Below are positions 1,660 through 39,126 of a stretch of 40,364 bases of DNA, piece after piece. The notes beneath the pieces were generated by a model. The model had not been told where the DNA came from and searched no databases. It worked only from the letters and a program-made list of their open reading frames with translations. Source of the DNA: Alphaproteobacteria bacterium. GTDB lineage: Bacteria; Pseudomonadota; Alphaproteobacteria; Caulobacterales; Aquidulcibacteraceae. The stretch lies in the NCBI GenBank assembly GCA_027484265.1, contig JAIXTH010000296.1, forward strand, positions 1 through 40,364, written 5' to 3'. The stretch's first letter is position 1; each line of letters starts with the position of its first letter. The position numbers and the translations under genes are program-made.

Positions 1660-2991
1660 ATGTCACACGCTCTTCCGTCCAACCCTTTGTCTCCGGCCCA
1701 GCGCGCCGCGCTGCTGCCGTCCCGTCTGCGCGATCAGCTGTTCCGGCAGGTGGGTGCGCATCGGCTCCAGCATGTGCTGGAAGACTGGCGGATCTGGGCC
1801 CGGCACGACCAGTTGCCGCCGCCAGGCAACTGGCGGACCTGGCTGCTGCTGGGCGGGCGCGGCTCGGGCAAGACCCGGGCAGCGGCCGAGTGGGTGCGTG
1901 AGCGGATGGAATCCGGAACCGCTTCCCGCGCCGCCCTGATCGGCCCCACCTTTGCGGATGTGCGCGATGTGATGGTGCTGGGTGTATCCGGCCTGATCGC
2001 CACGGCGTCCTCCGGGTTGGAGCCGGTCTTCCAGCCGTCGCTGCGGCGGCTGGTGTGGCCCACCGGCGGCCAGGCCCTGCTGTTCAGCGCCGAGGATCCC
2101 GACAGTCTGCGCGGCCCGCAGTTCGACCTCGCCTGGGGCGACGAGATTGCCGCCTGGAGCGCACCCGACGACCTGCTCGACCGGCTGCGCCCGGCGATGC
2201 GGGTCGGGGAGGATCCCCGGATGGTGCTGTCCACCACGCCGCGCCCGATCCCCGCGGTGAAGCGGCTGCTGGGCGACCCCGCCTGCCGCATCACCCGCTC
2301 CAGCACCGCCGCCAATGCCGCCAATCTGGCTCCGGCCCTGATGGATGACCTGGCGGCCCGCTATGGCCAGTCGGTATGGGCACGTCAGGAGCTGGGCGGC
2401 GAGCTGATCGAGGATCCCGAAGGCGCCTTGTGGACACGGGCCGACCTTGACGCCGCCCGTGCCCGCTTCGAGGACGTTCCGTTCGACCGGCTGCTGGTGG
2501 CGGTGGATCCGCCGACTTCCAAAGGCGACACGGCCGACACCTGCGGCATCGTCGTGGCCGGCCGCATCGGCTCCGGCCGGACAGCCCGGGCCATGGTCCT
2601 GGCAGACTGCTCCGTACAAGGATTGCCGCCCCGCGGCTGGGCCGCAGCTGTGACAGGCGCCTTCCAGAGCTATCAGGCCGACTTCGTCCTGGCCGAGGGC
2701 AACCAGGGCGGCGAAATGGTGCGGGCGGTGCTGCAGGAGGCCTGCCCCGGCCTGCCGGTGCGCCTGGTCCATGCCAGCCGCAGCAAGCGTGCCCGCGCCG
2801 AACCGGTGGCGATCGCCTACAACACGGGACGGGTCGGCCACGCCGGCCTGTTCCGCGAGCTCGAGGACCAGATGTGCTGCTTCGGCGCACCCGGTTTCCG
2901 CGGCAGCCCCGACCGCCTCGACGCCCTGGTCTGGGCCATCACCGATCTTCTCCTCACCGCGCCGGCCGAGCCGCGCGCCCGCTCCCTGTGA
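1660..2991 (+). CDS. GTA/phage terminase large subunit (RcGTA g2-like)
   Basis: Walker A-like WLLLGGRGSGKTRAAAEWVRE, WGDEIAAW Walker B-like motif, RNase H-like nuclease region LLVAVDPPTSKGDTADTCGIVVAG; first gene of a collinear GTA cluster. Confidence 0.95.
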   Translation: MSHALPSNPLSPAQRAALLPSRLRDQLFRQVGAHRLQHVLEDWRIWARHDQLPPPGNWRTWLLLGGRGSGKTRAAAEWVRERMESGTASRAALIGPTFADVRDVMVLGVSGLIATASSGLEPVFQPSLRRLVWPTGGQALLFSAEDPDSLRGPQFDLAWGDEIAAWSAPDDLLDRLRPAMRVGEDPRMVLSTTPRPIPAVKRLLGDPACRITRSSTAANAANLAPALMDDLAARYGQSVWARQELGGELIEDPEGALWTRADLDAARARFEDVPFDRLLVAVDPPTSKGDTADTCGIVVAGRIGSGRTARAMVLADCSVQGLPPRGWAAAVTGAFQSYQADFVLAEGNQGGEMVRAVLQEACPGLPVRLVHASRSKRARAEPVAIAYNTGRVGHAGLFRELEDQMCCFGAPGFRGSPDRLDALVWAITDLLLTAPAEPRARSL

Positions 2992-3001
2992 GTGACCTGC
3001 C

Positions 3002-4189
3002 ATGCGCTTTGCTCCGTTCAGACTGTTCCAGCGCCCACCGGCACGCTCCGAGCCCGAACAGCGGCAGGCTGGCCCGCTCGTGGCATGGTCCACCCCCGGC
3101 CAGCCGGCCTGGACCACGCGTGACTATCGGGCGCTGGCCCGCGAGGGCTATCAGCGCAACGCCATCGCCTATCGGTGCGTGCGGCTGGTGGCAGAGGCTG
3201 CGGCGTCCGTGCCGCTGCGAGCCGATGCCGGGTGTGCGCCCGATCATCCGTATCTGGCGCTTCTCGCCAGCCCCAATGGCGAACAGTCCGGCACCGAACT
3301 CCTCGAGAGCCTGTTCGGGCACCTGCAGATTGCGGGGAACGGCTGGCTGGAGCTGACGGCCATCGACGGTGTCCCGCGGGCCATCATGGCGCTGCGGCCC
3401 GATCAGGTGCGGATCATTCCGGGTACTGACGGCTGGCCGGCCGGGTGGGAACACCAGGCAGGGGCGCGCACCCGGCGCCTGTGGCGCGACGCTGCCAGCG
3501 ATCGCGCCCCGATCCTCCAGTTCAAGCTGTTCAACCCCGTGGACGATCTGTACGGCCAGTCGCCGCTCGAGGCCGCCGCGACGTCCGTCGACATCCACAA
3601 TGCCGGCGGGGCCTGGAACAAGGCGCTGATCGACAATGCCGCCCGCCCGTCCGGGGCGCTGGTCTATCGCGGCACCGACAGTGACCTCAAGATGCCCGAC
3701 AGCCAGTTCGAGCGCCTGAAGGCCGAGATGACCCAGCTCTATGCCGGTGCGGGCAATGCCGGCCGGCCCATGGTGCTGGACGGGGGGCTGCAATGGACCC
3801 CCATGAGCCTGACGCCCACCGAGATGGATTTCATCGAGGCGCGGCGCTCGGCGGCGCGTGATATCGCCCTGGCCTTCGGCGTGCCGCCGATGCTGCTCGG
3901 CATCCCGGGTGACAACACCTACGCCAATTACCGCGAGGCCAATCTCGCCTTCTGGCGCCAGACCGTGCTGCCGCTGGCCCGCAAGGCCGCTGCGGCCCTG
4001 TCCACCTGGTTGCGGCCTTGGAGCGATACCCCCTTCGCCATCACGGCAGACCCCGACGGCATCCCCGCCCTGGCCGACGAGCGCGCGGCGCTGTGGGCGC
4101 GGCTGGAGGCCTCGAGCTTCCTCGGCACCGACGAGAAGCGCGCCCTTGCGGGTCTGCCCCCCCTTTCCAACGGGAGCCTGCAGCCATGA
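3002..4189 (+). CDS. GTA/HK97-type portal protein (g3-like)
   Basis: YQRNAIAYRCVRLVAEAAASVPL, NPVDDLYGQSPLEAA, FGVPPMLLGIPGDNTYANYREANLAFWRQTVLP: phage portal hallmarks. Confidence 0.95.
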   Translation: MRFAPFRLFQRPPARSEPEQRQAGPLVAWSTPGQPAWTTRDYRALAREGYQRNAIAYRCVRLVAEAAASVPLRADAGCAPDHPYLALLASPNGEQSGTELLESLFGHLQIAGNGWLELTAIDGVPRAIMALRPDQVRIIPGTDGWPAGWEHQAGARTRRLWRDAASDRAPILQFKLFNPVDDLYGQSPLEAAATSVDIHNAGGAWNKALIDNAARPSGALVYRGTDSDLKMPDSQFERLKAEMTQLYAGAGNAGRPMVLDGGLQWTPMSLTPTEMDFIEARRSAARDIALAFGVPPMLLGIPGDNTYANYREANLAFWRQTVLPLARKAAAALSTWLRPWSDTPFAITADPDGIPALADERAALWARLEASSFLGTDEKRALAGLPPLSNGSLQP

Positions 4190-4464
4190 GCGAGAGTCAG
4201 TTCGGGCGATCCGGACCGGACAGCCCCCGCCTGTTCGATCCGCGCATCACCATCGCCGTTCTGCTGACCCTGTCGGTCGAGGTCGGCGGCGCCCTGCTCT
4301 GGATCGGATCGGCAGCCCAGCGGATCGCTGCGGTGGAGACCACCCTGGCAGTCCAGGCGCCGGTGGCCGAGCGTCTGGCACGGCTGGAGGCCGAGATGGC
4401 GGCGGCGCGCGCCGCGCTGAACCGGATCGAAAGCCGCCTCGACCGTGACGGGGGCCAGCCATGA
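4186..4464 (+). CDS. Small membrane/coiled-coil protein, GTA g3.5 position
   Basis: 92 aa, ATGA overlaps with both neighbours; one hydrophobic helix (ITIAVLLTLSVEVGGALLWIG) followed by a coiled-coil-like segment. Confidence 0.75.
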   Translation: MSESQFGRSGPDSPRLFDPRITIAVLLTLSVEVGGALLWIGSAAQRIAAVETTLAVQAPVAERLARLEAEMAAARAALNRIESRLDRDGGQP

Positions 4465-4898
4465 CCGGCCTGTTCGTGGCCGGTTACGCCAGCCTGTTCG
4501 GGGTGGCGGATCTGGCGGGCGACGTGGTGTCGCCAGGCGCCTTTGCCGGCAGCCTGGCGGTCCTGCCCGCCACCCGCCTGCGGATGCTGATGCAGCATGA
4601 CCCGTCCCGCCTGCTCGGTCGCTGGACCTGCGCGCGGGAGGACACGGTGGGCCTGTGGGTCGAGGGCCTGCTGGACACCGCCAGCGCCGAGGGTCTGCGC
4701 GCAGCAGCCCTGGTGGGCACCGGCAGCCTCGACGGGCTGTCGATCGGCTTCCGCACCCTGGCGGCCGCACCCCGCAGCGGCGGCGGCCGCCGCCTCGACC
4801 GCATCGACCTGCGCGAAGTCTCGCTCGTTGCCTTTCCCATGCTGCCGCAGGCGCGCCTGCGCATCGCGGCCAGCCCCGCCAGCCTCCTCGCCGCCTGA
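4461..4898 (+). CDS. GTA/HK97 prohead protease (g4-like)
   Basis: GYASLFGVADLAGDVVSPGAFAGSL...RMLMQHDPSRLLGRW...GLSIGFRT...RIDLREVSLVAFPMLPQARL. Confidence 0.93.
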   Translation: MTGLFVAGYASLFGVADLAGDVVSPGAFAGSLAVLPATRLRMLMQHDPSRLLGRWTCAREDTVGLWVEGLLDTASAEGLRAAALVGTGSLDGLSIGFRTLAAAPRSGGGRRLDRIDLREVSLVAFPMLPQARLRIAASPASLLAA

Positions 4899-4929
4899 GT
4901 GCGGCGCCTTCACCCGGAGAAACCAGCCC

Positions 4930-6174
4930 ATGGAAACCAAGATGCATCCCCCCGCCACCGGTCCGGCCAGCCCGGCCGAGGCCCGTGCCGCGCAGCAGGC
5001 GCTGCTGGCCACCTTCGAAGCCTACAAGACCGCCAATGACGAGCGTCTGGCGGCGCTGGAAGGCAAGGCCGCCACCGACATCCTGCTGGATGACCGGGTC
5101 GGCCGGATCGACGCCGCCCTCGCCCGCGCCCAGGCCAGCCTCGACCGCCTGGCCATCAGTGCCGCCCGTCCGGCCCTCGGCGCCCCCGCCGATCCGGCTG
5201 GGGACGAGCGCAAGGAGGCATTCGCCGCCTATCTGCGCCGCGGTGATGAAGCCGCCCTCATGAGGATCGAGGCCAAGTCGCTGTCGGCAGCGGTGCCGTC
5301 CGAGGGCGGCCATGTGGCGCCGCCCGAAGTGGCCGCCTCCATCGACCGCCGCCTGACCGCCGCCTCGCCGATCCGCAGGATCGCCACCGTCCGCGTGACC
5401 GGCTCCGGCACCTTCCGCAAGCCGGTCTCCATCACCACCCCCGCAGTTGGCTGGGTGAGCGAGAAGGCGGTGCGCCCGGAGACCGCCACCCCGAGCCTCG
5501 ATCTGCTGAGCTTCCCGGTTGGCGAGGTGTATGCGATGGCCGCCGCCACCCAGACCCTGCTGGAGGACGCCATCGTCGACATCGACCAGTGGCTGGCGGG
5601 CGAGATCGCCGAGAGCTTTGCCGTTGCCGAGGGCGCAGCCTTCGTTACCGGAGACGGCCTCAGCAAGCCCAGGGGCTTCCTGGCGGTACCCAGTGCTCCT
5701 GAAGCCTCCGCCCAGTGGGGCCAGCTGGGCTATCTCGCCACCGGTGCGGCCGGTGCCTTCCCCACCAGCAATCCGGTGGACCGGCTGGTGGACCTCACCT
5801 ACGCGCCCCGCACCCCGTACCGGGGCAATGCCAGCTTCGTCATGAACCGCCGCACCGTCGGCACGGTGCGCAAGTTCAAGGACGGACAGGGCAATTACAT
5901 CTGGCAGCCGTCGCTGGTGGCCGGACAGCCCGCAACCCTGCTCGGCTTTGCCGTGCACGAGTGCGAGGACATGCCCGATGTGGCGGCCGATGCCATGGCC
6001 ATCGCCTTTGGCGACTTTGCCCGTGGCTATCTGGTGGTGGACCGGGCCGATGTCCGGATCCTGCGCGACCCCTTCACCGCCAAGCCGTTCGTGATGTTCT
6101 ACGTCACCAAGCGGGTTGGCGGCGGGGTGCAGGACTTCGACGCCATCAAGCTCCTCAAGTTCGCAGCCAGCTGA
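4930..6174 (+). CDS. GTA/HK97-type major capsid protein (g5-like)
   Basis: N-terminal coiled-coil prodomain then EGGHVAPPEVAASI...GWVSEKAVRPETATPSL...FVMNRRTVGTVRKFKDGQGNYIWQPSL...DFARGYLVVDR; ATG 4930 chosen over the longer ORF. Confidence 0.95.
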   Translation: METKMHPPATGPASPAEARAAQQALLATFEAYKTANDERLAALEGKAATDILLDDRVGRIDAALARAQASLDRLAISAARPALGAPADPAGDERKEAFAAYLRRGDEAALMRIEAKSLSAAVPSEGGHVAPPEVAASIDRRLTAASPIRRIATVRVTGSGTFRKPVSITTPAVGWVSEKAVRPETATPSLDLLSFPVGEVYAMAAATQTLLEDAIVDIDQWLAGEIAESFAVAEGAAFVTGDGLSKPRGFLAVPSAPEASAQWGQLGYLATGAAGAFPTSNPVDRLVDLTYAPRTPYRGNASFVMNRRTVGTVRKFKDGQGNYIWQPSLVAGQPATLLGFAVHECEDMPDVAADAMAIAFGDFARGYLVVDRADVRILRDPFTAKPFVMFYVTKRVGGGVQDFDAIKLLKFAAS

Positions 6175-6190
6175 CGCAGGAGCCACCACC

Positions 6191-6709
6191 ATGCCGCTGC
6201 ACACGCTGGTTCCCCCCGCCGCCGAGCCGGTCAGCCTGGACGAGGCCCGTGCCTGGCTGCGCCTTGGCCATGACGGGGACGACACCGCCCTGATCCCGGC
6301 GATTGCCGGCGCCCGGGCTGCGTTCGAGGCCCGTACGGGCCGTGCCCTGGTGGCGCGGACGGTCCGGGAGAGCTTTGCGGCGGCCCGGACTGCGGGGGCG
6401 GGGCCACGCCTCCTCACCCCGTCCCTGCAACCGGTGACGGCACTTGCGGCCGTCACCCTGACGGGTCCCGCCGGAGCTGCCTCCCCGGCTCCGGCGGGGC
6501 TTGTCACCATCGAGGACGGGCGCCTGCGCCTGTCCCGCGCGGTGGAGGGCCTCACGGTTGATTATGTTGCCGGTGCAGCCACCAGCACGGCGGCGGTGCC
6601 GCCTGCGGACCGGGTGGCGGTGCTGGAGGAACTGGCGGCCCTGATGGCCCGGCGCGAAGCCGGCGTGACGGCGCCCGCGCCTCCGGGGCAGGCGGAGCCA
6701 CGGCTGTGA
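6191..6709 (+). CDS. GTA head-tail connector (g6-like)
   Basis: PAAEPVSLDEARAWLRLGHDGDDTALIPAIAGARAAFEARTGRALV is characteristic of gp6/connector proteins; position after capsid. Confidence 0.88.
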   Translation: MPLHTLVPPAAEPVSLDEARAWLRLGHDGDDTALIPAIAGARAAFEARTGRALVARTVRESFAAARTAGAGPRLLTPSLQPVTALAAVTLTGPAGAASPAPAGLVTIEDGRLRLSRAVEGLTVDYVAGAATSTAAVPPADRVAVLEELAALMARREAGVTAPAPPGQAEPRL

Positions 6710-7107
6710 CCGCTGCTGCCACCCGCGCTGCCCTGGCTGCCGCCTTCGCTGCCGACACCGGTGTGCGGGCCAGCCTCGGCAACCCCGTGCGTCTGATGGA
6801 GCCCCCCGCCAGGGGCGCGCTGCCGGCAGCGGTCTGGCGCCGCTGGGAGACCCGTCCCGCCGGCGCCAGCCTTGCCCCCTCCGACGAGCACACCATCACC
6901 CTGGAGGTGGTCACGCGCGAGGCCGGGGTCGAGGCGGCGCGCGCCGCCATCGCCGCCCTCTCGGCAGCTGCCGCCAGCATGCGGCCGACCCCGCCGGACG
7001 TGCACATCGTGCTGGTCCTGCCGGTCTATGCCGACGTGATGCGCCAGGCCGACCAGCGCGGCTGGACCGGCATCCTCCGCCTCAAAGTGATCGCCGAGCC
7101 GATCTGA
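6706..7107 (+). CDS. GTA tail terminator / DUF3168 protein (g8-like)
   Basis: GTGA overlap with the previous gene; DUF3168-like composition and position just upstream of the major tail protein. Confidence 0.82.
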   Translation: MTAAATRAALAAAFAADTGVRASLGNPVRLMEPPARGALPAAVWRRWETRPAGASLAPSDEHTITLEVVTREAGVEAARAAIAALSAAAASMRPTPPDVHIVLVLPVYADVMRQADQRGWTGILRLKVIAEPI

Positions 7108-7132
7108 ACCCCTCGCACTCTGGAGAGCTCCC

Positions 7133-7549
7133 ATGGCCGGACAGGCAGGACGCGATGTCCTTCTCAAGATATCCGACGGGGCGGCCACGCCGTCCTTCAC
7201 CACGGTTGCCGGCCTGCGGGCGCGGACCATCGCGCTGGCATCCCGGCTGGTGGATGCCACTGCCTCGGACAGTCCGGGCAACTGGCGCGAGCTGCTGCCG
7301 GCTGCAGGCCTCAAGGAGGTGAGCGTGTCTGGCTCGGGCGTGTTCAAGGATGCCCCGTCCGATGCGCTGGTGCGCGCCAGCTTCTTTGCCCAGGACGTGC
7401 GGGTCTGGCGGCTGGTGATCCCGGACTTCGGCACGCTGGAAGGGCCGTTCCAGATCTCGAACCTCGAATATGGCGGGGCCCATGACGGCGAGGCGACCTT
7501 CTCGCTCACGCTGTCCAGCGCCGGCGCTATCGGGTTTGCGGCGCTATGA
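7133..7549 (+). CDS. GTA major tail protein (g9-like)
   Basis: MAGQAGRDVLLKISDGAATPSFTTVAGLRARTIAL...FEGPFQISNLEYGGAHDGEATFSLTLSSAGAIGF (TIGR02126-like). Confidence 0.92.
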   Translation: MAGQAGRDVLLKISDGAATPSFTTVAGLRARTIALASRLVDATASDSPGNWRELLPAAGLKEVSVSGSGVFKDAPSDALVRASFFAQDVRVWRLVIPDFGTLEGPFQISNLEYGGAHDGEATFSLTLSSAGAIGFAAL

Positions 7550-7833
7550 GCGGGGCGGTGAATCCCGAACGCGGCGAGACCGTGCTGCTGGTGGACGGGG
7601 CACCGTTGCGGCTGTGCCTGACCCTGGGTGCGCTCGCCACGCTGGAGGCGGCGTTCGGAGCGGATGCGCTGGAAGAGCGGCTGCGCAAGGTTTCGGCGGA
7701 GGATCTGCTGGTGCTGGTGTCGGCCCTGTCAGGCGATCCGGCGCTGACGCCGCAGGCGCTGGCAGGGCGCGCGATCCACCCGGCCGAAGCCGCCCGCGCG
7801 GTGGCCGAGGCCTTCCGTCTCGCCTTCGCCTGA
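7546..7833 (+). CDS. GTA tail assembly protein (g10-like)
   Basis: MSGAVNPERGETVLLVDGAPLRLCLTLGALATLEAAFGADALEERL; ATGA overlap with g9. Confidence 0.88.
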   Translation: MSGAVNPERGETVLLVDGAPLRLCLTLGALATLEAAFGADALEERLRKVSAEDLLVLVSALSGDPALTPQALAGRAIHPAEAARAVAEAFRLAFA

Positions 7834-7845
7834 GGGAGCAGGCCG

Positions 7846-8043
7846 ATGCGCGCCCACTGGCAGTCCCGTCTGGCCGGCGCCCTCGCGGCGGGGATCCAGC
7901 CTGCCGCCTTCTGGCAGCTGTCGGTGGCCGAGTGGCGCGCGCTGGCGGCCATCGCCGTCGATGCGCGCCTCGACCGCCCGGGCCTTGCAGCCCTCGCCGC
8001 CCGCTTCCCCGACCAACCGGTCAACCAGGGAGAAACGCCATGA
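7846..8043 (+). CDS. GTA tail assembly chaperone-like protein (g10.1 / rcc01693-like)
   Basis: 65 aa, GIQPAAFWQLSVAEWRALAA; position between g10 and g11. Confidence 0.83.
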   Translation: MRAHWQSRLAGALAAGIQPAAFWQLSVAEWRALAAIAVDARLDRPGLAALAARFPDQPVNQGETP

Positions 8044-8603
8044 GCGACAGTCTTGAATCCGGCCTGACCGAAGCCGCCGACCAGCTGGCCGCCTTCGCCG
8101 ATGGCCCTGCGCGCGACGCCGCCGATGCCATATCCGAGGCCTTCAACAGCACGGGCCGCACCATCGCTTCGGCCCTGGGCCGTGCGGCCCGCTCGGGCGA
8201 GCTGTCGATCAAGGGGCTGGCGGCATCGATCCTCAAGGACCTGTCGGGCCTCGCCATCAACCAGTTCGTCACGGCGCCGCTGCGCGATCTGTTCACCGGC
8301 CTCAGCAAGGGCGTGGTCCAGTCCCTGGGTCTGCCGGGCCTGCCGGGGGTGGGCGGCGCGCGGGCAGGCGGTGGCCCCGTCACGTCCGGAAGCGCCTATC
8401 TGGTTGGCGAGCGCGGACCCGAGCTGTTCGTGCCCAGCGTGACCGGCACTATCCGCCCGCATGGCGATACCGGCGGCCCGCCGCCGGTGACGGTCCATAT
8501 CCACCTTGCCCAGGGGGCAGGCCTCAACGAGGTGCGCCGCTCGTCGGTGCAGGTCGCCGCGGCCCTGGCCAAGGCGGTGCAGCGCGGGAGCCGGGTGCTG
8601 TGA
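8040..8603 (+). CDS. GTA short tape-measure protein (g11-like)
   Basis: 187 aa from ATG 8040; C-terminal GGPVTSGSAYLVGERGPELFVPSVTGTIRPHG is the classic tape-measure C-terminal motif. Confidence 0.9.
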   Translation: MSDSLESGLTEAADQLAAFADGPARDAADAISEAFNSTGRTIASALGRAARSGELSIKGLAASILKDLSGLAINQFVTAPLRDLFTGLSKGVVQSLGLPGLPGVGGARAGGGPVTSGSAYLVGERGPELFVPSVTGTIRPHGDTGGPPPVTVHIHLAQGAGLNEVRRSSVQVAAALAKAVQRGSRVL

Positions 8604-9232
8604 GCGCGTTCCATGACATCCGCCTGCCGCTCAAGCTGGCGCGCGGCGCCGTGGGCGGACCCGAGCGGCAGACCGACGTGGTGGGACTGGCCAATGGCCG
8701 CGAGGTGCGGATCGCCAGCCTGGCGGCCAGCCGTCGCCGGTGGGAGCTGGCTGGGGCCTTGCGCTCGCTGGACGAGCTGGCGCTGCTGACCGCCTTCTTC
8801 GAGGCGCGGCTGGGGCGCCTGCATGCCTTCCGGTTCCGCGACCCCGCCGACCACAAGAGCTGTGCGCCCTCCGCGGTGCCGGGGCCGGGCGACCAGCTGC
8901 TGGGCACCGGCGATGGCAGCCGCACCACCTTTGCCCTGGTCAAGCACTATGGCGATGCCGCCGGCAGCCACGCCCGCCCGATCCGGCTACCGGATCCGTC
9001 CAGTGTGCGCGTGCAGGTTGGACCGGCAGAGCTGGCGGCCAGCGGCTTTTCCGTGTCGGTCCCCGATGGCACAGTCACGCTCGCTACGGCGCCGCATGTG
9101 GGAGCACAGGTGCGGGCGGGGTTCGTGTTCGATGTGCCGGTGCGGTTCGATACCGACCGGCTGGATGTGGCGCTGGATGCTTTCGATGCCGGACGGCTGG
9201 TGTCGGTGCCGCTAGTGGAGGTGGTGCTGTGA
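8600..9232 (+). CDS. GTA distal tail protein, DUF2460/TIGR02217 (g12-like)
   Basis: MSAFHDIRLPLKLARGAVGGPERQTDVVGLANGREVRIASLAASRRRWELAGALRSLDEL. Confidence 0.92.
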   Translation: MSAFHDIRLPLKLARGAVGGPERQTDVVGLANGREVRIASLAASRRRWELAGALRSLDELALLTAFFEARLGRLHAFRFRDPADHKSCAPSAVPGPGDQLLGTGDGSRTTFALVKHYGDAAGSHARPIRLPDPSSVRVQVGPAELAASGFSVSVPDGTVTLATAPHVGAQVRAGFVFDVPVRFDTDRLDVALDAFDAGRLVSVPLVEVVL

Positions 9233-10116
9233 GGGCGCTGCCGACGGCTCTGGCCGCGCGCCTCGCGGACGGCGCGGTGACGCTGGCGCGCTGCTGGCGG
9301 CTGGTGCGGCGCGACGGGGTGGAGGTGTGCGCCACCGACCACGACCGCCCGCTCTGTGTGGACGGCCGCACCTATCAGCCCGCCACCGCCCTGGCCGCAG
9401 GCCATGCCGAGCACGAGCCCGGCCGCGACCGCCTGAGCGTCACCGGCGCCCTGGATGTGGCCGGGATCAGCGAGGACGACCTGATCCTGGGGCGCTGGCA
9501 CCACGGGCGGGTCGAGCTGCTGGTGGCCGACTGGCAGGACCCCGCGGTGTTCGTGCGGCTGTGGAGCGGCCGGGTTGGCCACGTGACCCGGCGGGACCGG
9601 GCCTTCGAGCTGGATCTGGAGAACGCCGCTGCGGCGCTGGATGTGCCGGTCGGACGGGTGTTTGCCCGCACCTGCGATGCCGTGCTGGGCGATGCCCGCT
9701 GCGGCGTGGATCTGGACCAGCCGGGCCGCTCGGTCACGGGCACGCTCGACAGTGTGTCCGATGCCCGCACCCTGCTGGTGGCAGCGGCGGGCGGGCCGTG
9801 GCCCGCACTGCCCTGGACCGATTGGGCCGGATCGCAGGTCCAGGTGCAGACCGGGCGGCTGGCGGGGACCGGCTGGCCGGTGCTGGCCGCACGGCTGGAG
9901 GCGGGCGTGATCCGCCTGTCGCTGGCACAGGCGATGCCGCTGCTGCCGGCGCCGGGCGACGCGGTGCGGCTGGTAATCGGCTGCGACCACAGCTTTGCCA
10001 CCTGCCGCGACCGCTTTGCCAACCAGCTGAACTTCCGGGGCTGTCCGCTGATGCCGGGGGACGATGCGGTGCTGTCCGGCCCTGCCGGCTCGGGCAATGA
10101 CGGGGGGCGCCGATGA
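9229..10116 (+). CDS. GTA tail hub protein, DUF2163/TIGR02218 (g13-like)
   Basis: GTG start at 9229; C-rich C-terminus VIGCDHSFATCRDRFANQLNFRGCPLMPGDDAVL typical of DUF2163 proteins. Confidence 0.92.
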   Translation: MRALPTALAARLADGAVTLARCWRLVRRDGVEVCATDHDRPLCVDGRTYQPATALAAGHAEHEPGRDRLSVTGALDVAGISEDDLILGRWHHGRVELLVADWQDPAVFVRLWSGRVGHVTRRDRAFELDLENAAAALDVPVGRVFARTCDAVLGDARCGVDLDQPGRSVTGTLDSVSDARTLLVAAAGGPWPALPWTDWAGSQVQVQTGRLAGTGWPVLAARLEAGVIRLSLAQAMPLLPAPGDAVRLVIGCDHSFATCRDRFANQLNFRGCPLMPGDDAVLSGPAGSGNDGGRR

Positions 10117-10538
10117 GTGCCGGTCCCGGTCAGCTGGAGGCCGAGGCCCGGCTCTGGCTCGGCACGCCGTTTGCCGAGGGCGCGGCAGTGCGCGGCGCTG
10201 GCTGCGACTGCATCGGCCTGATGGAGGCTTTGGCGCGCGCCCGCGGCCTGGCGCCGCCACCACGTGGGACTTTGTCGCTGGAAGCGGGGCTGGCGCAGGT
10301 GATGGTGCCGCGCACCGGGCCGCCGCAGCCGGGTGACGTACTGCTGCTGGCGCGCGAGCCCGGCGGGCCGCCGGTCCACGCCGCCCTGCTGACCGCCACC
10401 GGCACCCTGATCCACGCCCACTGGAGCCAGGGCGTGGTGGAGAACCGTTTTGGCGGCTGGTTCCAGGCCCGGCTGGTGGCGGTGTTCGCCTGGCCGGTCC
10501 CACCCGATGAGGAGGGCAAGACCCCATGGCAGCCCTGA
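10113..10538 (+). CDS. GTA NlpC/P60-type cell-wall peptidase (g14-like)
   Basis: LGTPFAEGAAVRGAGCDCIGLMEAL (Cys nucleophile context) and GPPVHAALLTATGTLIHAHWSQGVVENRF. Confidence 0.92.
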   Translation: MSAGPGQLEAEARLWLGTPFAEGAAVRGAGCDCIGLMEALARARGLAPPPRGTLSLEAGLAQVMVPRTGPPQPGDVLLLAREPGGPPVHAALLTATGTLIHAHWSQGVVENRFGGWFQARLVAVFAWPVPPDEEGKTPWQP

Positions 10539-13500
10539 TCTTCTCGCAGATCGGCTCGAACCTGTTCGGCACAATCGGTGGATTCATCGGTGCGCTGGCG
10601 GGGGCGCGGATCGATGCCGTGGCGGGCGCAGCCCTGGCGCCCACCCGGGTGATGCCCTCGCGGCTCAAGTCGCTGTCGGTGCAGGCCTCGCAGGAGGGCG
10701 AGCCGATCCAGCTGGTGCATGGCCGGGCGCGGATCACAGGACAGGTGGTGTGGGCCTCCCGCTTCCGCGAGACCAGCACCGCACGGCGCGTGGGTGGCAA
10801 GACCGGCCAGCGGGTGGTGGAGCATCACTACGACATCTCGTTTGCCATCGGCCTGTGCGAGGGCCCGATCCGGGGGATCGGCCGGGTGTGGGCCAATGGC
10901 GATCCGCTGGACCTGTCGGCATTGAACTGGCGGCTGCTGCCGGGCGGACCGGACCAGATGCCCGACCCGCTGATCGAGGCGATCGAGGGGCTCGACCGCG
11001 CGCCTGCCCATAGGGGCCTTGCCACCATCGTGTTCGAGGACTTCCCGCTGGACGGCTTTGGCGACCGGATCCCGCAGCTGTCGTTCGAGGTGTTCACCCA
11101 GACCGCTGGCGGCAGCGAGCCCGGCAGCCTGGAGGCGCTGGCGCGCGGGGTGAACCTGATCCCGGCGTGCGGCGAGTTCGTCTATGCCACCACGCCGGTG
11201 CGCACAGTGCTGCGCCCGGGTCGGGAGCGGGTCGAGAACCTCAATGCCAGCGCCGGGCGCACCGATTTCAGTGTGGCGCTGGACACGTTGCAGCGTGATC
11301 TGCCGGGCGTGGACCATGTGTCGCTGGCGGTGGCCTGGTTCGGCGACGACCTGCGCTGTGGCAACTGTCAGGTGATGCCGCGGGTGGAGGTGCGGGGGAA
11401 GGTCAACCGGCCGCTGGCCTGGGCGGTGGCGGGGCTGACGCGGGCCACGGCGCCGCTGGTCTCCACCGTGGACTGGCGTCCGGCGCTGGGCGGCACGCCA
11501 GCCGATTTCTGTGTGATCGAAGCCCTGCGCGAGCTGAAGCTGCGCGGCTTCAAGGTCACGCTCCATCCGTTCCTCCTGATGGACATCCCGGCTGGCAACA
11601 GCCTGCCCGCACCGACCGGCGGCACCCAGCCGCCCTATCCCTGGCGGGGGCGGATCAGCTGCCATCCCGCACCCGGTCACCCCGGCAGCCCCGCAGGCAC
11701 CGCTGCCGCCGATGCGCAGGTGCAGGCCTTCTTCGGCGCGGCCACGCCTGGCCAGATGACAGTCGGGGCGGGCACGGTGAGCTGGCAGGCCGGTACGCCC
11801 TGGGGCTACCGGCGGTTTGTGCTGCATCTGGCGGGCCTGGCACAGGCCGCAGGCGGCGTGGACGGGTTCCTGCTGGGCTCGGAGCTGTGCGGCCTCACCC
11901 GGGTGCGTGGAGCCGGCGGCCAGTTTCCGGCGGTGGAGGCGCTGCGCACCCTGGCGGGCGAGGTCCGGTCACTGCTGGGGCCTTCCACCGCTTTGTCCTA
12001 TGGCGCGGACTGGACCGAATATGGCGCGCAGGTGCCGGCCGATGATCCGTCGGGTCTGGTGTTTCCGCTCGATCCGCTCTGGGCCGATCCGCTGATCGAC
12101 CATGTCGGCCTCGACTGGTACCCACCGCTCGCCGACCAGCGGCCGGGCGAGGGGCGCCCCACCCGCGCCGCGCTGGCGGCAGGCATGGCCTCGGGCGAGG
12201 CCTATGACTGGTACTATGCCTCCGACGCAGACCGCGCCGCCGGCACGCGCTCGCCAATCCAGGACGGCGGCTATGGCGAGCATTGGGTGTGGCGGCAGAA
12301 GGACCTGCGCGGCTGGTGGCTGAATGCGCATCACCCCCGCACTGGCGGCGTGCGCGCGGCGACGCCGACAGGGTGGCAGCCGGGCATGAAGCCGGTGCGG
12401 CTGATGGAGCTGGGCTTTCCGGCGGTGGACCGGGGCGCCAACCGACCCAGCGCCTTTCCCGATCCCAAGAGCGTGGAGAGCGTTCTGCCGCCCTTCTCAA
12501 CCGGCGCCCGCGACGATGCCGCCCAGCGCACGGCGCTGGAAGCTGCACTGGCCTGGTGGCACGTCCCCGGCAACAATCCGGTCTCGCCCGCCACGGGCGC
12601 ACCGATGCTGGACCCGGCGCACACCCATCTGTGGTGCTGGGACGCCCGTCCCTATCCGCAGTTTCCGGCCCGCACCGACCTGTGGGCCGACGGACCCCAT
12701 GCCGCCACCGGTCACTGGCTGGCCGGGCGGGCCGGGGCGGTGTCGCTGGGCGCGGTGCTGGCAGACATTGCGGGGCGGGCCGGCGTGACGCTGGACGTCA
12801 GCGGGGTGGAGGGCACGCTGGAGGGGCATGTGCTGGCGGGCACCACCCCGGCGCGCGATGCGCTGGCGATCCTGGCCCTGGCGTTCGGCCTCGAGGCCTG
12901 CACCCGCCCCGACGGCACCCCGGCGCTGCGCACCGCGCCCGGGCCGGTGGCGGCGCACCTGCTGTCCGACGCGGCCCTTGCCCGGTCCGGCAGCGGCCCG
13001 GCGACGGTGGCCGAGCATGATCTGGCAGCAGGCCCCGCCGCAGCCCGTGTCGAGACCTGGTCGAGCGAGCGGGCGCTGCAGCCAGCCGCGGCCCTGGCCG
13101 GGCCGGTCAGCGAGGGGCACGGCACCACCGCCCTGGCTGTGCCGATCATCGCCGATGCCGGGCTGGCGCGCACGATCGCCGCGCGCCTGGCAACAGTCGC
13201 AGCGCTGCCGCGCGAGCAGCTCCAGATCACGGTGGGACCCCTGGCAGGCCTGGCCATCGAGCCGGGCGACCGGCTGGCGCTGGCAGACGGGCGCGTCTGG
13301 CGGGTGGAGGCGGTGGAGGGCGCGCTCGCCCCGGCGCTCACGCTGGTGCCTGCGCCGCCGCGCGGCATTGCCCCCATGACCGGCTTTGCCCCCGGCAGCG
13401 TCGAGCCACCGCCAGTCCCGGCAGCGCCGCTGCTGCGGGTGCTCGATCTGCCCGCACCCTTTGTCGAGCCAGCCGATCCACGCCCCCTGCTGGCGGTGGC

Positions 13501-14329
13501 CGCCGATCCCTGGGGTGGCAGTGTGGCCGTACTGGCCAATGGGAGCCCGGCCGCGACCGTGGCGGGGCCGGCGCGGATGGGCGAGCTGGTCACGCCGCTG
13601 CCGGCCACCCGCGCGGGCGTCAGCCTGCCCGGCGCGGTGGAGGTGGGGCTGTGGTCCGGCACTCTTGGCACCGCTGGCGGGATGGCTGCGGTTCTGGACG
13701 GAGCCGGGCAGGTGCTGGACGTGCTGTCCTGGCGCGCGGCAGCTCTGGTGGCGACCCGGCGCTGGCGCCTGGCGGGGGTGTCGCGCGGGCTGGCGGGGGC
13801 GGCTGCACCGCCGGCCATCGCCGCCGGCAGCGACGTGGTGGTGCTGGATCCGGCCCTCGGCAGGGCCGCGCTCGCGCCCGGCCTCGCCGGAAGCTGGATC
13901 AGCTGGCAGGCGCGCGCCAGCGCTGCGGCCTGGCCGGACGATGAAGCAGCGCTGTCCGCCTTGTGGCAGGCTGTGGCGGCCCGGCCCTGGTCGCCGGTGC
14001 ATCTGCGGGCGGTGCGGACCGCGCCCGGTGTCCGGCTGTCGTGGACGCGGCGGGCGCGCGGTGACGGCGATGCCCTCGATCCGCCCGACGTGCCCGCGGC
14101 CTCGGTCAGCCCGCTGTTCCGGCTCGAGATCCAGTCGCAGGCCGGTGCCCCCGTGCGCACCCTCACCACGACAGTGCCCGAGCTGATCTACCCGTCAGCC
14201 GACGAACTGGCTGACTTCGGCGGGGTGCAGAGCCATCTTCAGGTGGCGGTCTGCGAGCTTGGTGACGGGGGCCGCACCGGTGTGGCGGCATCGGCGCTGC
14301 TGGAGGTGCGCGCAGCCGGTCGGATCTGA
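10526..14329 (+). CDS. GTA host-specificity / TIM-barrel-like baseplate megaprotein (g15-like)
   Basis: 1267 aa; FSQIGSNLFGTIGGFIGALAGARIDA, SALSYGADWTEYG...PLIDHVGLDWYPPLADQR...GGYGEHWVWRQKDLRGWWLNAHHPR, HLWCWDARPYPQFP: GTA TIM-barrel-like domain. Confidence 0.95.
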   Translation: MAALIFSQIGSNLFGTIGGFIGALAGARIDAVAGAALAPTRVMPSRLKSLSVQASQEGEPIQLVHGRARITGQVVWASRFRETSTARRVGGKTGQRVVEHHYDISFAIGLCEGPIRGIGRVWANGDPLDLSALNWRLLPGGPDQMPDPLIEAIEGLDRAPAHRGLATIVFEDFPLDGFGDRIPQLSFEVFTQTAGGSEPGSLEALARGVNLIPACGEFVYATTPVRTVLRPGRERVENLNASAGRTDFSVALDTLQRDLPGVDHVSLAVAWFGDDLRCGNCQVMPRVEVRGKVNRPLAWAVAGLTRATAPLVSTVDWRPALGGTPADFCVIEALRELKLRGFKVTLHPFLLMDIPAGNSLPAPTGGTQPPYPWRGRISCHPAPGHPGSPAGTAAADAQVQAFFGAATPGQMTVGAGTVSWQAGTPWGYRRFVLHLAGLAQAAGGVDGFLLGSELCGLTRVRGAGGQFPAVEALRTLAGEVRSLLGPSTALSYGADWTEYGAQVPADDPSGLVFPLDPLWADPLIDHVGLDWYPPLADQRPGEGRPTRAALAAGMASGEAYDWYYASDADRAAGTRSPIQDGGYGEHWVWRQKDLRGWWLNAHHPRTGGVRAATPTGWQPGMKPVRLMELGFPAVDRGANRPSAFPDPKSVESVLPPFSTGARDDAAQRTALEAALAWWHVPGNNPVSPATGAPMLDPAHTHLWCWDARPYPQFPARTDLWADGPHAATGHWLAGRAGAVSLGAVLADIAGRAGVTLDVSGVEGTLEGHVLAGTTPARDALAILALAFGLEACTRPDGTPALRTAPGPVAAHLLSDAALARSGSGPATVAEHDLAAGPAAARVETWSSERALQPAAALAGPVSEGHGTTALAVPIIADAGLARTIAARLATVAALPREQLQITVGPLAGLAIEPGDRLALADGRVWRVEAVEGALAPALTLVPAPPRGIAPMTGFAPGSVEPPPVPAAPLLRVLDLPAPFVEPADPRPLLAVAADPWGGSVAVLANGSPAATVAGPARMGELVTPLPATRAGVSLPGAVEVGLWSGTLGTAGGMAAVLDGAGQVLDVLSWRAAALVATRRWRLAGVSRGLAGAAAPPAIAAGSDVVVLDPALGRAALAPGLAGSWISWQARASAAAWPDDEAALSALWQAVAARPWSPVHLRAVRTAPGVRLSWTRRARGDGDALDPPDVPAASVSPLFRLEIQSQAGAPVRTLTTTVPELIYPSADELADFGGVQSHLQVAVCELGDGGRTGVAASALLEVRAAGRI

Positions 14330-19980: not shown

Positions 19981-21042
19981 TCAGGCCGGGGGCGGCACGG
20001 GCGGGCCAAGCCTGCGCCGCACGCTGCGCACCAATACTGCTGCCGCAGCCGAAACCGACAGAAGCAGCACGAGCGGCATCCAGCCGCCGTCGTGACCGCT
20101 GGCCGCGAGGGCCAGCGCCAGGCTGCCGCACGCGGCGGTGGCACCCCACCAAAGCAGTGCCACCCGCACAGCCGGCTGCCCGCTTTGCCGCATCCACTGA
20201 TACAGGTGCTGGCGGTGCGGGCGCAGCAGGACCCACAGCCCCCCGTCATGCACCTCCCCGTCATGGCGCGCCCGCCACCCGACGGTGAGGATCACATCCG
20301 CCAGGATCGGCAGCAGGCACAAAGCCACCAGGGCTGCATTCACACCCTGCTGCGTGGCCAGGAGCCCGGTTCCCGCGAACCAGATACCCGCGAACAGCGA
20401 GCCGGTATCCCCCGCAAACAGCTTCCCGCCGGGCACGTTCCAGACCAGGAACCCGGCGCAGCCCGCGGCGCCCGCCAGTGCCAGCACCCCGGTCAGCGCC
20501 GCGCCAGGCTCCAGGGCTGCGAGGCCTGCCAGACAGACCAGCCCCACCGCCACCGACCCCAGTGCCAGGCCGTTGGAGCCGTCCATGAAGTTAACCGCAT
20601 TGGCGCACACCATCAGCCAGAGCCACGTACCGGTCAGCGCCAGCAGGACAGCCGCCACCTCCGGCAGCGCGACCGGCAGGAACCCGAGATCTGCCTGCAG
20701 GCCCGGGGCAGCACTGGCTGCGGCGACCGACAGCAGCAGCAGCTTGATGCGGGTGGGAACCACCTTGATGTCATCGACAAGCCCCAGGGCGGCGCCGAAG
20801 CTGGCCAGCATCACGATCGCCAGCAACGGGCCCGCAGGCCAGGGGCCTGCGCCGCCTGTCCCGGAGGCCAGCCAGACCGCCAGCAGCGTCCCGGCCCAGA
20901 CCCCCAGTCCGCCCGCCACGGGTGTCGGCGTCACGTGCACCTTGTGACCGCCGGGCTGGTCGCGCGGACCCCACCGCACCAGTGCGCCGCAGACCAGGAA
21001 CGAGGCGAGAGCGCCCAGCAGGAGCGCGGCGGGCAGGCTCAT
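19981..21042 (-). CDS. WecA/MraY/RgpG-type undecaprenyl-phosphate glycosyl-1-phosphate transferase
   Basis: HKVHVTPTPVAGGLGVW, GLVDDIKVVPTRIKL, NAVNFMDGSNGLALG, FAGDTGSLFAG, LLRPHRQHLYQ. Confidence 0.9.
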   Translation of the reverse strand: MSLPAALLLGALASFLVCGALVRWGPRDQPGGHKVHVTPTPVAGGLGVWAGTLLAVWLASGTGGAGPWPAGPLLAIVMLASFGAALGLVDDIKVVPTRIKLLLLSVAAASAAPGLQADLGFLPVALPEVAAVLLALTGTWLWLMVCANAVNFMDGSNGLALGSVAVGLVCLAGLAALEPGAALTGVLALAGAAGCAGFLVWNVPGGKLFAGDTGSLFAGIWFAGTGLLATQQGVNAALVALCLLPILADVILTVGWRARHDGEVHDGGLWVLLRPHRQHLYQWMRQSGQPAVRVALLWWGATAACGSLALALAASGHDGGWMPLVLLLSVSAAAAVLVRSVRRRLGPPVPPPA

Positions 21043-29568: not shown

Positions 29569-29689
29569 GCTGATGTCGTCCCCTGTCACCGATCCGAAAT
29601 CAAGTCTTCACAGCTCTGTCGGCTGGCCGTCACCCTAGCATCGCACGACCTGCCTAACTGCCCCGCCCGAGGTCAAATCGGGGGCTGTG

Positions 29690-32323
29690 ATGAGAGTTTC
29701 GGGGCGTATGGGCGGTCGTGCGGGCCGGTTGCTGGCGGCAACAAGTCTGGTGACCGGGGCAGCGATGCTGTGGTCTGGCGCGGCGGCAGCCCAGAGCGCT
29801 CCGGCCGACACCGCCAGCGAGGCGGGTACGTCTGGCAATCCCGAAGTGGTGGTCGTCACAGGCTCGATCCGCTCGGCGCAGGCTGCTTCGATTTCAGCCA
29901 AGCGCGTGGCCGAAAACCTGGTGGATATCGCGGCCGCAGACACTGTGGGCCGCTTCCCGGATCAGAACACCGCAGCTGCCCTTGCGCGACTGCCCGCCGT
30001 CGCGGTGCAGCGTGACCAGGGCCAGGAGCGCTATGTGCAGGTGCGCGGCGCGCCCAACCGCTGGATCTCGGTGAGCTTTGACGGCATTCCGGTGATCGGG
30101 GTCGATGAAGGCGGTGCCACCCGCGCGTTCCGCTTCGATGCAGTGCCGGCCGTGATGCTGAGCTCGGCGGCAATCAACAAGTCGCTGACCCCGGATATCA
30201 CCGCCGAAGCCATCGCTGCCAATGTCGATCTGCGCACATGGTCGCCGCTGTCGGCCGACGGCTTTGACCTGCAAGGTGACATCGGTGCAGGCGAGATGGA
30301 TCTTGGCGGCGGCGAGCAGCGCCAGGGCTCGATCCGCGCGGCCTGGTCGAACGGCACCATCGGCCTTGTCGCCGGTGCCTCGACTTACCGCCGCGAGCAG
30401 GTGACGGACAATCGCGAAGTCGGTGCATGGGCGGGCCGGGTGCCGACCGAACTCGACATCCGCAACTACCAGCTCATCCGCGAGAACAACGGCTTCTTCC
30501 TGGGGGCGGAGTACCGGGTTAGCGATCGGCTGACAGTCTCGGTCAAGGGCATCGTCACCGAGTTCACCGACACCGAAGACCGCGACCAGTATGAGTTCCG
30601 CCTCGACCGGGCACCAGGCTTTGCCACGGCGCAGCGCAGCGGCGATCTCGTGAATGTGCCGGTGCGCGGCACCTTCAATGAGGGTGACTATCTGACCCGC
30701 TACGAGATCATCACGGCTTCGGCGGACTATGAGGGCGAGCGGTTCGATCTGTCTGCCCGGATCAACCACACCGTCAGCGACAACACGACGTTCCTGCCGC
30801 TGATCCAGGTCAGCTCCTCGAGCAGCCAGAACGTGTCGCTGAACTACAATCTGGCCGACCCGAACTTTCCGATTGTCAGCCTGTTCCGCACTGTGCCCGG
30901 TACGCCGCCAGTGCGCGGGGCCGCAATTGCGTCCATCGACCAGGCCGCCTTTCCAAGCGTGACCTATATTCCGGTGCTTCAGGACAGCTTCTCCGAGAGC
31001 TGGTCCGGCCGGATCGACGGTCGGCTGCAGCTGCGCGATGATGTCGAAGTGGCGGTCGGCGCGTTCTGGAGTGACCGTGCGCTGGACGGCTTTACCTTCG
31101 CCACGTCCAATGCCGTCAATCTGACCGGGCGGGTCAACATCGGCGAGTTTGTGACCGGTCAGCCATGGACCACCGGTTTCCCGCTCGGGACGACGTTCAA
31201 CCTGATCGACAATCAGCGCCTGCGTGCCGCTGCTCTGGCTGCCCTGCAGGGTGCCCCCACCTTCGTGCCGGGCCAGACCTATGACCGCGCCCGGGACGTG
31301 CCGGACATCAACCGCTACGATCTCGATGAGCGGCTTCTGGCGCTGTATGGCCGGGTCACCTGGGAGTTCGGCGCCACGCGCGTGGTGGCAGGGCTGCGGC
31401 TCGAGCGGTTCGAGGTGGACAATCGTGGCACGGTGCAGATCGGTGCCAACCGTTTCGAGCGGCTGGAGGTCTCGACGGAACAGACCGACCTCTTCCCCAG
31501 CATCAATGTGCGTCACGAGATCGGCGAAAACTGGGTGGTGCGGGCCTCGGTACAGCGCGGCATTGCCCGCCCCTCCTTCGGCGAAGTGCGGGTCGGCGCT
31601 TCGGTGAACGATACCACCAGCCCCGGCACTGTCAGCGGCGGGAATCCGGCCCTTGAACCGGAATACACCTGGGGCACTGACTTCAGCATCGAGTTCTACC
31701 CCAACCGGTCCAGCATTGTGGCGCTGTCGGTCTACCGTCGCTGGGTCTCCGGTGTGCTGTATTCCAACACGCAGACGGTGGGATCGGACGCCTTCAACAG
31801 CAATGGCATCGACCGCTCGAACTACCAGCTCACTTCGACCTTCAACGGTGAAGACGGCGAGCTGACAGGTGTCGAGCTGAGCTATCAGCAGCAGTTCTCG
31901 TGGTTCCCCGCGCCGTTCGACGGGCTGGGCGTGCAGGGAAATCTGGCCTTCATCGATGGATCGTTCGACACCGTGCAGCGCCGTGGCATCGATTTCCCCG
32001 GCACGTCGGGCCGGATCATCAACGCGTCCATCTATTACGAGAAGTACGGCGTCTCGGCCCGGATCAGCTACCAGCACCGCACCGAATGGCTGGACACGCT
32101 GGGGGGGCTCGGCGTTGGCTCCACGGGCGATGAGTTCCGCGACGGATACGGCAATCTCGATATAGCCCTGCGCTATAGCGTGAACGACCAGCTGACCCTG
32201 TTCGCCGACTTCTCGAACCTCACCGACGAACTTTATGTTGCCTATCTGGGCGATCCGGGACGGCCGACCGAAGTCGAGCAGATCGGCTCCCGGTTCCTGG
32301 TGGGCATCCGTTTCAGCTACTGA
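29690..32323 (+). CDS. TonB-dependent outer membrane receptor
   Basis: Signal peptide (LLAATSLVTGAAMLWSGAAAAQ), plug domain (VVVVTGSIRSAQ...DTVGRFPDQNTAAALARLPAVAVQRDQGQERYVQVRG), C-terminal beta signal RFLVGIRFSY. Confidence 0.95.
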   Translation: MRVSGRMGGRAGRLLAATSLVTGAAMLWSGAAAAQSAPADTASEAGTSGNPEVVVVTGSIRSAQAASISAKRVAENLVDIAAADTVGRFPDQNTAAALARLPAVAVQRDQGQERYVQVRGAPNRWISVSFDGIPVIGVDEGGATRAFRFDAVPAVMLSSAAINKSLTPDITAEAIAANVDLRTWSPLSADGFDLQGDIGAGEMDLGGGEQRQGSIRAAWSNGTIGLVAGASTYRREQVTDNREVGAWAGRVPTELDIRNYQLIRENNGFFLGAEYRVSDRLTVSVKGIVTEFTDTEDRDQYEFRLDRAPGFATAQRSGDLVNVPVRGTFNEGDYLTRYEIITASADYEGERFDLSARINHTVSDNTTFLPLIQVSSSSSQNVSLNYNLADPNFPIVSLFRTVPGTPPVRGAAIASIDQAAFPSVTYIPVLQDSFSESWSGRIDGRLQLRDDVEVAVGAFWSDRALDGFTFATSNAVNLTGRVNIGEFVTGQPWTTGFPLGTTFNLIDNQRLRAAALAALQGAPTFVPGQTYDRARDVPDINRYDLDERLLALYGRVTWEFGATRVVAGLRLERFEVDNRGTVQIGANRFERLEVSTEQTDLFPSINVRHEIGENWVVRASVQRGIARPSFGEVRVGASVNDTTSPGTVSGGNPALEPEYTWGTDFSIEFYPNRSSIVALSVYRRWVSGVLYSNTQTVGSDAFNSNGIDRSNYQLTSTFNGEDGELTGVELSYQQQFSWFPAPFDGLGVQGNLAFIDGSFDTVQRRGIDFPGTSGRIINASIYYEKYGVSARISYQHRTEWLDTLGGLGVGSTGDEFRDGYGNLDIALRYSVNDQLTLFADFSNLTDELYVAYLGDPGRPTEVEQIGSRFLVGIRFSY

Positions 32324-35767: not shown

Positions 35768-35888
35768 GACCCGCCCTCTCTCAGGCTGTATTGAACGGTG
35801 TCGGCAGCGGGTCTGGCAAGGGCCGCGCACATTGTGCCAGCCGGCCGGCCAGCTGCCCGAAGCCATGTCCTGATGTGATCGATCTGGC

Positions 35889-35904
35889 GTTGCCGAACGG
35901 CAAC
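35889..35904. promoter_or_regulatory. Inverted repeat (possible operator) in GH97/TonB-receptor divergent region
   Basis: GTTGCCG-AA-CGGCAAC, perfect 7-bp arms. Confidence 0.45.
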
Positions 35905-36021
35905 ACCCTAAAAACCTCATAAAAACAGAGAAAGTCCGCTCACGCACCCGTGACAGTTGTGTGAAAGAATTCGCTGTGCGGCATTGCCAGCTCTTCACGT
36001 TCCTGCAATGTAGCTTTCCTA

Positions 36022-36038
36022 CACGCAGCTGATGCGTG
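36022..36038. promoter_or_regulatory. Inverted repeat in leader of TonB receptor gene
   Basis: CACGCA-GCTGA-TGCGTG, perfect 6-bp arms, 5-nt loop. Confidence 0.3.
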
Positions 36039-36205
36039 CCATGCGGGGCAACCTGTGGGCTGCATCCAGCTGTGGGCTGGAAGGCGGGGTGATCCTGCCG
36101 GCACGGCTCGGTAGCGCAAGGTGGTCCGTTACAGGCGGGTCGGGCTTGCGGGGGAAAAGAGGGCAGGGGTCGCCAAGAACCCCGGTCCATTGGGAGGTAC
36201 ATCGC

Positions 36206-38998: not shown

Positions 38999-39025
38999 TC
39001 CGGCCCGGACCAGATCAACATTCGG

Positions 39026-39060
39026 GCCCCCGCCAGACCACTGGCGGGGGCTCTGTCTTG
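39026..39060 (+). terminator. Rho-independent-like terminator after TonB receptor
   Basis: GCCCCCGCCAG-ACCA-CTGGCGGGGGC (perfect 11-bp stem, 39026-39051) followed by TCTGTCTTG. Confidence 0.8.
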
Positions 39061-39126
39061 TGACTTGCCAAACAGACCTTCTCGGCGTCAAACAGAGCCA
39101 AGAGAACATCGTTGGGAGCGACCTCA

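Follow-up and report, generated by a model that had tools for sequence, protein, structure and literature searches.

The neck of the gene transfer agent (GTA) RcGTA consists of the portal, the adaptor g6, the stopper g7 and the terminator g8 (PMC7296036). The stopper gene is missing from some otherwise RcGTA-like clusters of Sphingomonadales: among 55 genomes, the g7 locus is empty in 26 and occupied by an unrelated gene in 22 (PMC9765227). Because many of these GTAs are without g7, we did not treat this gene as defining for an RcGTA-type GTA; g1 was not treated as defining either. In terms of regulation, the Caulobacter proteins GafY and GafZ are the counterparts of the N-terminal and C-terminal portions, respectively, of GafA (PMC9632790), and homologues of GafA are annotated as DUF6456 (PMC9638019). 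CcGTA and other Caulobacterales GTAs, such as those of Brevundimonas (L138, L169), share both the bacterial order and the cluster with the locus described here. The Brevundimonas clusters are accompanied by g7 and by a gafY–gafZ pair, whereas the present locus has a GafY-like gene only and appears to have been relocated.

The window, i.e., the whole stretch of DNA that was analysed (40,364 nucleotides), is an entire contig (G000:C163) of a draft metagenome-assembled genome (MAG) of 3.07 Mb, which is 87% complete and divided into 326 contigs. Its host is a member of the Caulobacterales near Candidatus Phycosocius, Aquidulcibacter and Pseudaquidulcibacter. The region corresponding to positions 1660–14329 contains 15 ORFs that cover 99.6% of its length, with 4-base overlaps between most of them (Table 1). 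Gene identities were assigned from matches to Pfam, PHROGs and NCBIfam HMMs together with gene position, and these matches bear out the first-pass annotation of 15 consecutive same-strand genes in RcGTA order, with 15 of 15 reading frames open. The description of this cluster as near-complete stands for the 15 genes and their order, with two gaps corresponding to g1 and g7. The strongest single sign of a GTA is g15, which carries the GTA TIM barrel and, in the GTA-specific profile search that had been suggested, scored 1315 bits against the NCBIfam “megatron” model (NF048004, cut-off 800). The assignment of this region as the head–tail cluster of a vertically inherited RcGTA-type GTA is well supported by these sequence comparisons and those below. 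We also consider it highly probable that the cluster was relocated and that its stopper was lost within its branch.

Table 1. Genes of the RcGTA-type cluster, with positions in the window.
Gene	Product	Position	Strand	Supporting matches
g2	Large terminase subunit, 443 aa	1660..2991	+	PF03237 2.4e-27; PF17289 7.3e-17
g3	Portal, 395 aa	3002..4189	+	PF04860 3.8e-78; TIGR01537 above cut-off
g3.5	Small protein, 92 aa	4186..4464	+	No family above cut-off; same place in relatives, 35–57% identity
g4	Prohead protease, 145 aa	4461..4898	+	PF04586 1e-22; TIGR01543 above cut-off
g5	HK97-fold major capsid protein, 414 aa	4930..6174	+	PF05065 7.7e-86; TIGR01554 394 bits
g6	Head–tail adaptor, 172 aa, shortened in clade	6191..6709	+	TIGR02215 3.7e-19; AlphaFold model
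g8	Tail terminator, 133 aa, directly after g6	6706..7107	+	PF11367 2.5e-14; AlphaFold model
g9	Major tail tube protein, 138 aa	7133..7549	+	PF06199 2.8e-43; TIGR02126
g10	GTA-gp10 family, 95 aa	7546..7833	+	PF11836 31.3 bits, above cut-off
g10.1	Tail assembly chaperone, 65 aa	7846..8043	+	PF09550 4.5e-11; TIGR02216 (rcc01693 family) below cut-off
g11	Short tape measure protein, 187 aa	8040..8603	+	PF09718 9.8e-9; RcGTA_tape NF058675 weak, below cut-off
g12	Distal tail protein, 210 aa	8600..9232	+	PF09343 1.5e-73; TIGR02217 227 bits
g13	Baseplate hub, 295 aa	9229..10116	+	PF09931 2.1e-46; TIGR02218 188 bits
g14	NlpC/P60 peptidase, 141 aa	10113..10538	+	PF00877; TIGR02219 just below cut-off
g15	Megatron with GTA TIM barrel, 1267 aa	10526..14329	+	NF048004 1315 bits; PF13547 6.5e-122

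The cluster is similar to RcGTA (L203, L205) in the order from g2 to g15, in the HK97-type head, the short tape measure and the distal tail, hub and megatron proteins. It differs from RcGTA in the absence of g1 (small terminase) and g7 (stopper, Rcc01689 family), in a shorter adaptor, and in an activator that is not a fused GafA. Genes homologous to those of its tail tip are also found in the phages MW202777 (L305), R4C, RcRhea and RcMeacham, and in L305 the homology extends to the head genes. However, these phages feature long tape measures as well as replication and lysis genes, and L305 has a g7-type stopper; the tape measure of the window comprises 187 residues, compared with roughly 600–750 in related phages. 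Carbon content per residue of g3 and g5 was set aside as a GTA sign: the values (4.79 in the window, 4.82–4.83 in GTAs and 4.86 in phages) lie in the right direction, with overlapping ranges.

A capsid scan of named genomes identified the nearest relatives at 63–68% identity, all of them Caulobacterales: Hyphomonadaceae bacterium UKL13-1, Aquidulcibacter sp., Ca. Phycosocius bacilliformis and spiralis, Pseudaquidulcibacter saccharophilus and related MAGs. The clusters of these three genera (L154–L163 except L162, and L170) also lack g7. The order of the cluster genes is conserved across the Caulobacterales loci compared, so that the synteny proposed as a check was indeed found in relatives. 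In a tree of g3 and g5 (72 rows, quick LG+G4 search), the window falls into a clade of 12 rows with its host relatives (SH-aLRT 100), which is composed of the window, the two nearest genera (genus codes g6 and g13) and two IMG/VR contigs. This clade is followed by the rest of the window's family (f1) and then by families f2, f3, f4 and f5, roughly according to host group. The IMG/VR phages are localised to a separate side of the tree, and L305, the only one of the four phages above that was placed in this head-gene tree, is basal to or outside the GTAs on a long branch. Four phage-labelled records, MW091529 (L302), MW462191 (L303) and the IMG/VR contigs L034 and L035, hold RcGTA-type clusters and look like misnamed GTA clusters; that of L303 is flanked by chromosomal genes for a penicillin-binding protein, an usher, a transporter and a regulator, and L034 and L035 branch with the near relatives of the window.

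A prophage or defective phage that recently entered next to ptsP would account for a position on the ptsP side that is not common to relatives, and single genes of the cluster are up to about 56% identical to phage genes. The window genes nevertheless branch with those of host relatives and not with phages, the tape measure is short, and the GC3 of the cluster (0.861) is close to that of three flanking genes (0.851). In agreement with the first-pass annotation, no integrase, repressor or lysis gene was recognised in the cluster or among the flanking ORFs scanned with Pfam (a scan covering part of the ORFs at 17–40 kb). No tRNA gene lies beside the cluster, and the longest exact word common to both flanks is 13 bases, which leaves no att-like repeat. 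A recent phage entry is therefore extremely improbable. The preference stated at the outset for a domesticated, vertically inherited GTA is upheld by the position in the tree, the shared gene order and the purifying selection observed in relatives, as described below.

The flanking genes are housekeeping genes as first described, zapE (3′ part) and pgl upstream and ptsP and a rodZ-like gene downstream, yet this site differs from that of relatives and does not appear to be ancestral. In relatives from families f1, f2 and f3, g15 is followed by the same dnaJ-like gene, a neighbour they have in common with CcGTA-type Caulobacterales GTAs, and in the two nearest genera g2 is preceded by a penicillin-binding-protein gene. 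In the window, the cluster instead adjoins ptsP, and the penicillin-binding-protein and dnaJ-like genes of the same genome are on other contigs devoid of the cluster, the latter gene being truncated by a contig end. Because ptsP and the rodZ-like gene are also adjacent in close relatives, where they are not accompanied by a GTA, and because the ancestral neighbours are elsewhere in the genome, the cluster rather than ptsP would have moved, unless the assembly is wrong. Judged from gene order, the pgl/ptsP site is new and the ancestral site is between the penicillin-binding-protein and dnaJ-like genes. Fragmentation of the draft MAG and the mere 1.66 kb of contig left of the cluster would fit an assembly artefact, with the cluster truly located elsewhere. 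This is quite unlikely, since the right flank runs continuously through ptsP and the rodZ-like gene in the order found in relatives, and the penicillin-binding-protein gene is flanked by other genes, neither by a cluster nor by a gap. Relocation would mean that GTA clusters can switch chromosomal site while still being inherited; here, a cluster passed down in the host lineage would have taken up its new chromosomal position after the split from those relatives.

The most prominent difference from RcGTA concerns the neck. The stop codon of g6 overlaps the start of g8, which leaves no room for g7. A g7 profile (A2) built from 19 GTAs recovered the solved RcGTA stopper (R. capsulatus being part of the profile) and SPP1 gp16, and matched stopper-bearing GTAs with E values of 1e-21 to 1e-37, all six control genomes being recovered at 1e-21 or better. 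The same profile revealed nothing convincing in the source genome, in nine cluster-bearing genomes of the two nearest genera, in six genomes of family f2 or in G043, even though the source genome, the two genera and f2 retain g6 and g8; the best matches in the source genome (E 0.5–0.8) are at chance level and were rejected. Six-frame searches of the loci, including those of the named relatives, showed the same absence, whereas among 83 mostly phage loci such searches detected g7 in 60 and g6 in 69. Mapping of g7 presence on the tree required three changes by parsimony, as against a single loss shared by the f1 branch and f2, which was just not rejected (AU p 0.052). Since stopperless clusters are already reported in Sphingomonadales, the window represents a further case; the two belong to different bacterial orders and are likened here by description and not by sequence, and the g7 losses are presumably independent. 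In the literature searched we found no report of stopperless Caulobacterales clusters, though an earlier one may exist. With respect to g1, the short gap between pgl and g2 contains no fitting ORF, and a search with the single RcGTA g1 sequence matched only loci L179–L233 and no Caulobacterales locus; this search replaced an iterated g1 profile, which had drifted onto off-frame ORFs inside g2.

Structural models are consistent with the roles assigned to the remaining neck proteins. The AlphaFold model of g6 (pLDDT 88) is most similar in fold to the RcGTA adaptor (6toa/6tba, TM about 0.7), and that of g8 (pLDDT 92) to chain 4A of the RcGTA virion (6tba, TM 0.80), followed by lambda gpU; since chain 3A is the stopper, chain 4A was taken to represent the terminator. 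In the stopperless branch of f1, g6 has lost 12–14 residues of its beta domain and has a short tail past the last helix, which in the window is predicted to be disordered. This shortening is suggestive of neck remodelling but no more than a lead, as a few clusters that do have a stopper show comparable shortening. The deletion was accordingly rejected as an indicator of stopper loss, given that some clusters with a stopper likewise have this segment reduced and that f2 retains it. In the alignment, g6 of L135 and L169 (Brevundimonas and a relative) seems to be without the whole beta attachment domain, similar to the minimal adaptors of some phages.

The shortened adaptor might dock directly on the terminator, or an unrelated protein encoded elsewhere might bridge the two. 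Replacement of g7 by an unrelated gene has been proposed for some Sphingomonadales (PMC9765227), and a stopper-like protein of unrelated sequence would be invisible to sequence searches. However, the g6/g8 overlap and the dense packing of the 15 genes leave no spare ORF in the cluster, and a stopper gene outside it would be separated from neck genes that stand side by side in the other loci examined, so we regard this substitution as rather unlikely. In one genus of family f2 (genus code g15) that is also without g7, a small ORF between g5 and g6 (L145:8195–8398, L147:8035–8331) is a possible stopper replacement in that genus.

The distribution of g15 in the family and order is patchy. Matches were found in 54 of 61 genomes and none in the other seven; about 45 of the 61, the source genome among them, have the greater part of the gene (in some cases split over contigs), and the remaining matches are fragments only. 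Some fragment-only genomes (G017, G034 and G036) also hold a broken or partial gafZ, and the patchiness thus looks like decay in place; the remnants suggest that an inherited element decayed, not that one was gained, although the uneven presence that the first-pass annotation had held to speak against a GTA is real within the family. Several family members hold only cluster remnants, which suggests that the element is dispensable. Three loci of the same family (L126, L131 and L133 in G015, G020 and G013) have kept the head and tail-tip genes and are missing part of g7–g11; they are possibly decaying clusters or tail variants. The other finding named in advance as contrary, placement inside active phages, is not what the tree shows. 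As the window has no close enough relative, pairwise dN/dS was measured in its stopperless relatives only, and amounted to 0.02–0.25 for nearly every one of the 15 genes, with single values up to about 0.35 in g6 and g10.1; dS is high in some of the pairs, whose ratios are therefore rough. In these relatives, each of the 15 genes evolves under purifying selection, g6 and g8 beside the lost g7 included.

The absence of g7 and GafZ and the megatron fragments and broken gafZ of other family members would also agree with an inherited relic that no longer produces transferring particles, in which the loss of g7, g1 and GafZ represents early decay. Against this, all 15 frames are open, decayed family members look different (fragments and stops), and strong purifying selection acts on every gene of the stopperless relatives. 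Because this selection extends across two diverged stopperless genera, it requires long continued function after the loss of g7, and we consider a relic unlikely.

The source genome encodes a GafY-like protein with a DnaA C-terminal domain (DnaA_C) on another contig (G000:C254:12629–12799, L318), and this protein is probably the activator of the cluster. In G038 (family f3), the GafY-like homologue overlaps a DUF6456 gene, which from its domain and neighbourhood we infer to be gafZ; a control search with the DUF6456 Pfam model matched in Caulobacter vibrioides only, in agreement with this identity. No convincing DUF6456/GafZ match was found in the source genome (87% complete), in the two nearest genera or in family f2, whereas the domain occurs in f4, in part of f3 and in the majority of those f1 members that carry the stopper. 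Judged from the absent gene, GafZ-type anti-termination seems to be missing. The source genome combines a GafY-like gene and an intact structural cluster with no detectable GafZ, which its close relatives likewise lack. A link between the losses of g7 and GafZ was dropped, as it is contradicted by family f5 (g7 present, DUF6456 absent) and by G043 (DUF6456 present, g7 absent).

By homology with RcGTA and CcGTA, transcription of the operon would start in the gap that precedes g2; the capsid protein g5, after processing by g4, would assemble into a small head into which g2 packs pieces of host DNA via the g3 portal, and g6 to g15 would make up a short tail with the hub and megatron at its tip. 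Particles would be released by host lysis and inject their DNA into kin. With no detectable g7 in cluster or genome, this branch has very probably lost the stopper ring. We tentatively propose, as a possibility short of an even chance, a working GTA in which the terminator binds the portal adaptor directly, with neither stopper ring nor GafZ anti-termination; the stopper would have been lost repeatedly within the Caulobacterales, with continued selection on the remaining genes. These clusters document a Caulobacterales GTA lineage that lacks a protein regarded as a neck component of the particle, with the other genes under selection, and the stopperless relatives (Pseudaquidulcibacter and Ca. 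Phycosocius) offer a direct test of a siphophage-like particle without a stopper ring.

Elsewhere in the window, a tRNA-Arg (CCT) gene was identified at 20797–20877, 6.5 kb downstream of the cluster; no phage genes were noticed adjoining it. In the regions corresponding to 29687–32323 and 33692–39109, a TonB-dependent receptor gene and a gene of glycoside hydrolase family 97 lie close together and make up a small sugar-use locus.
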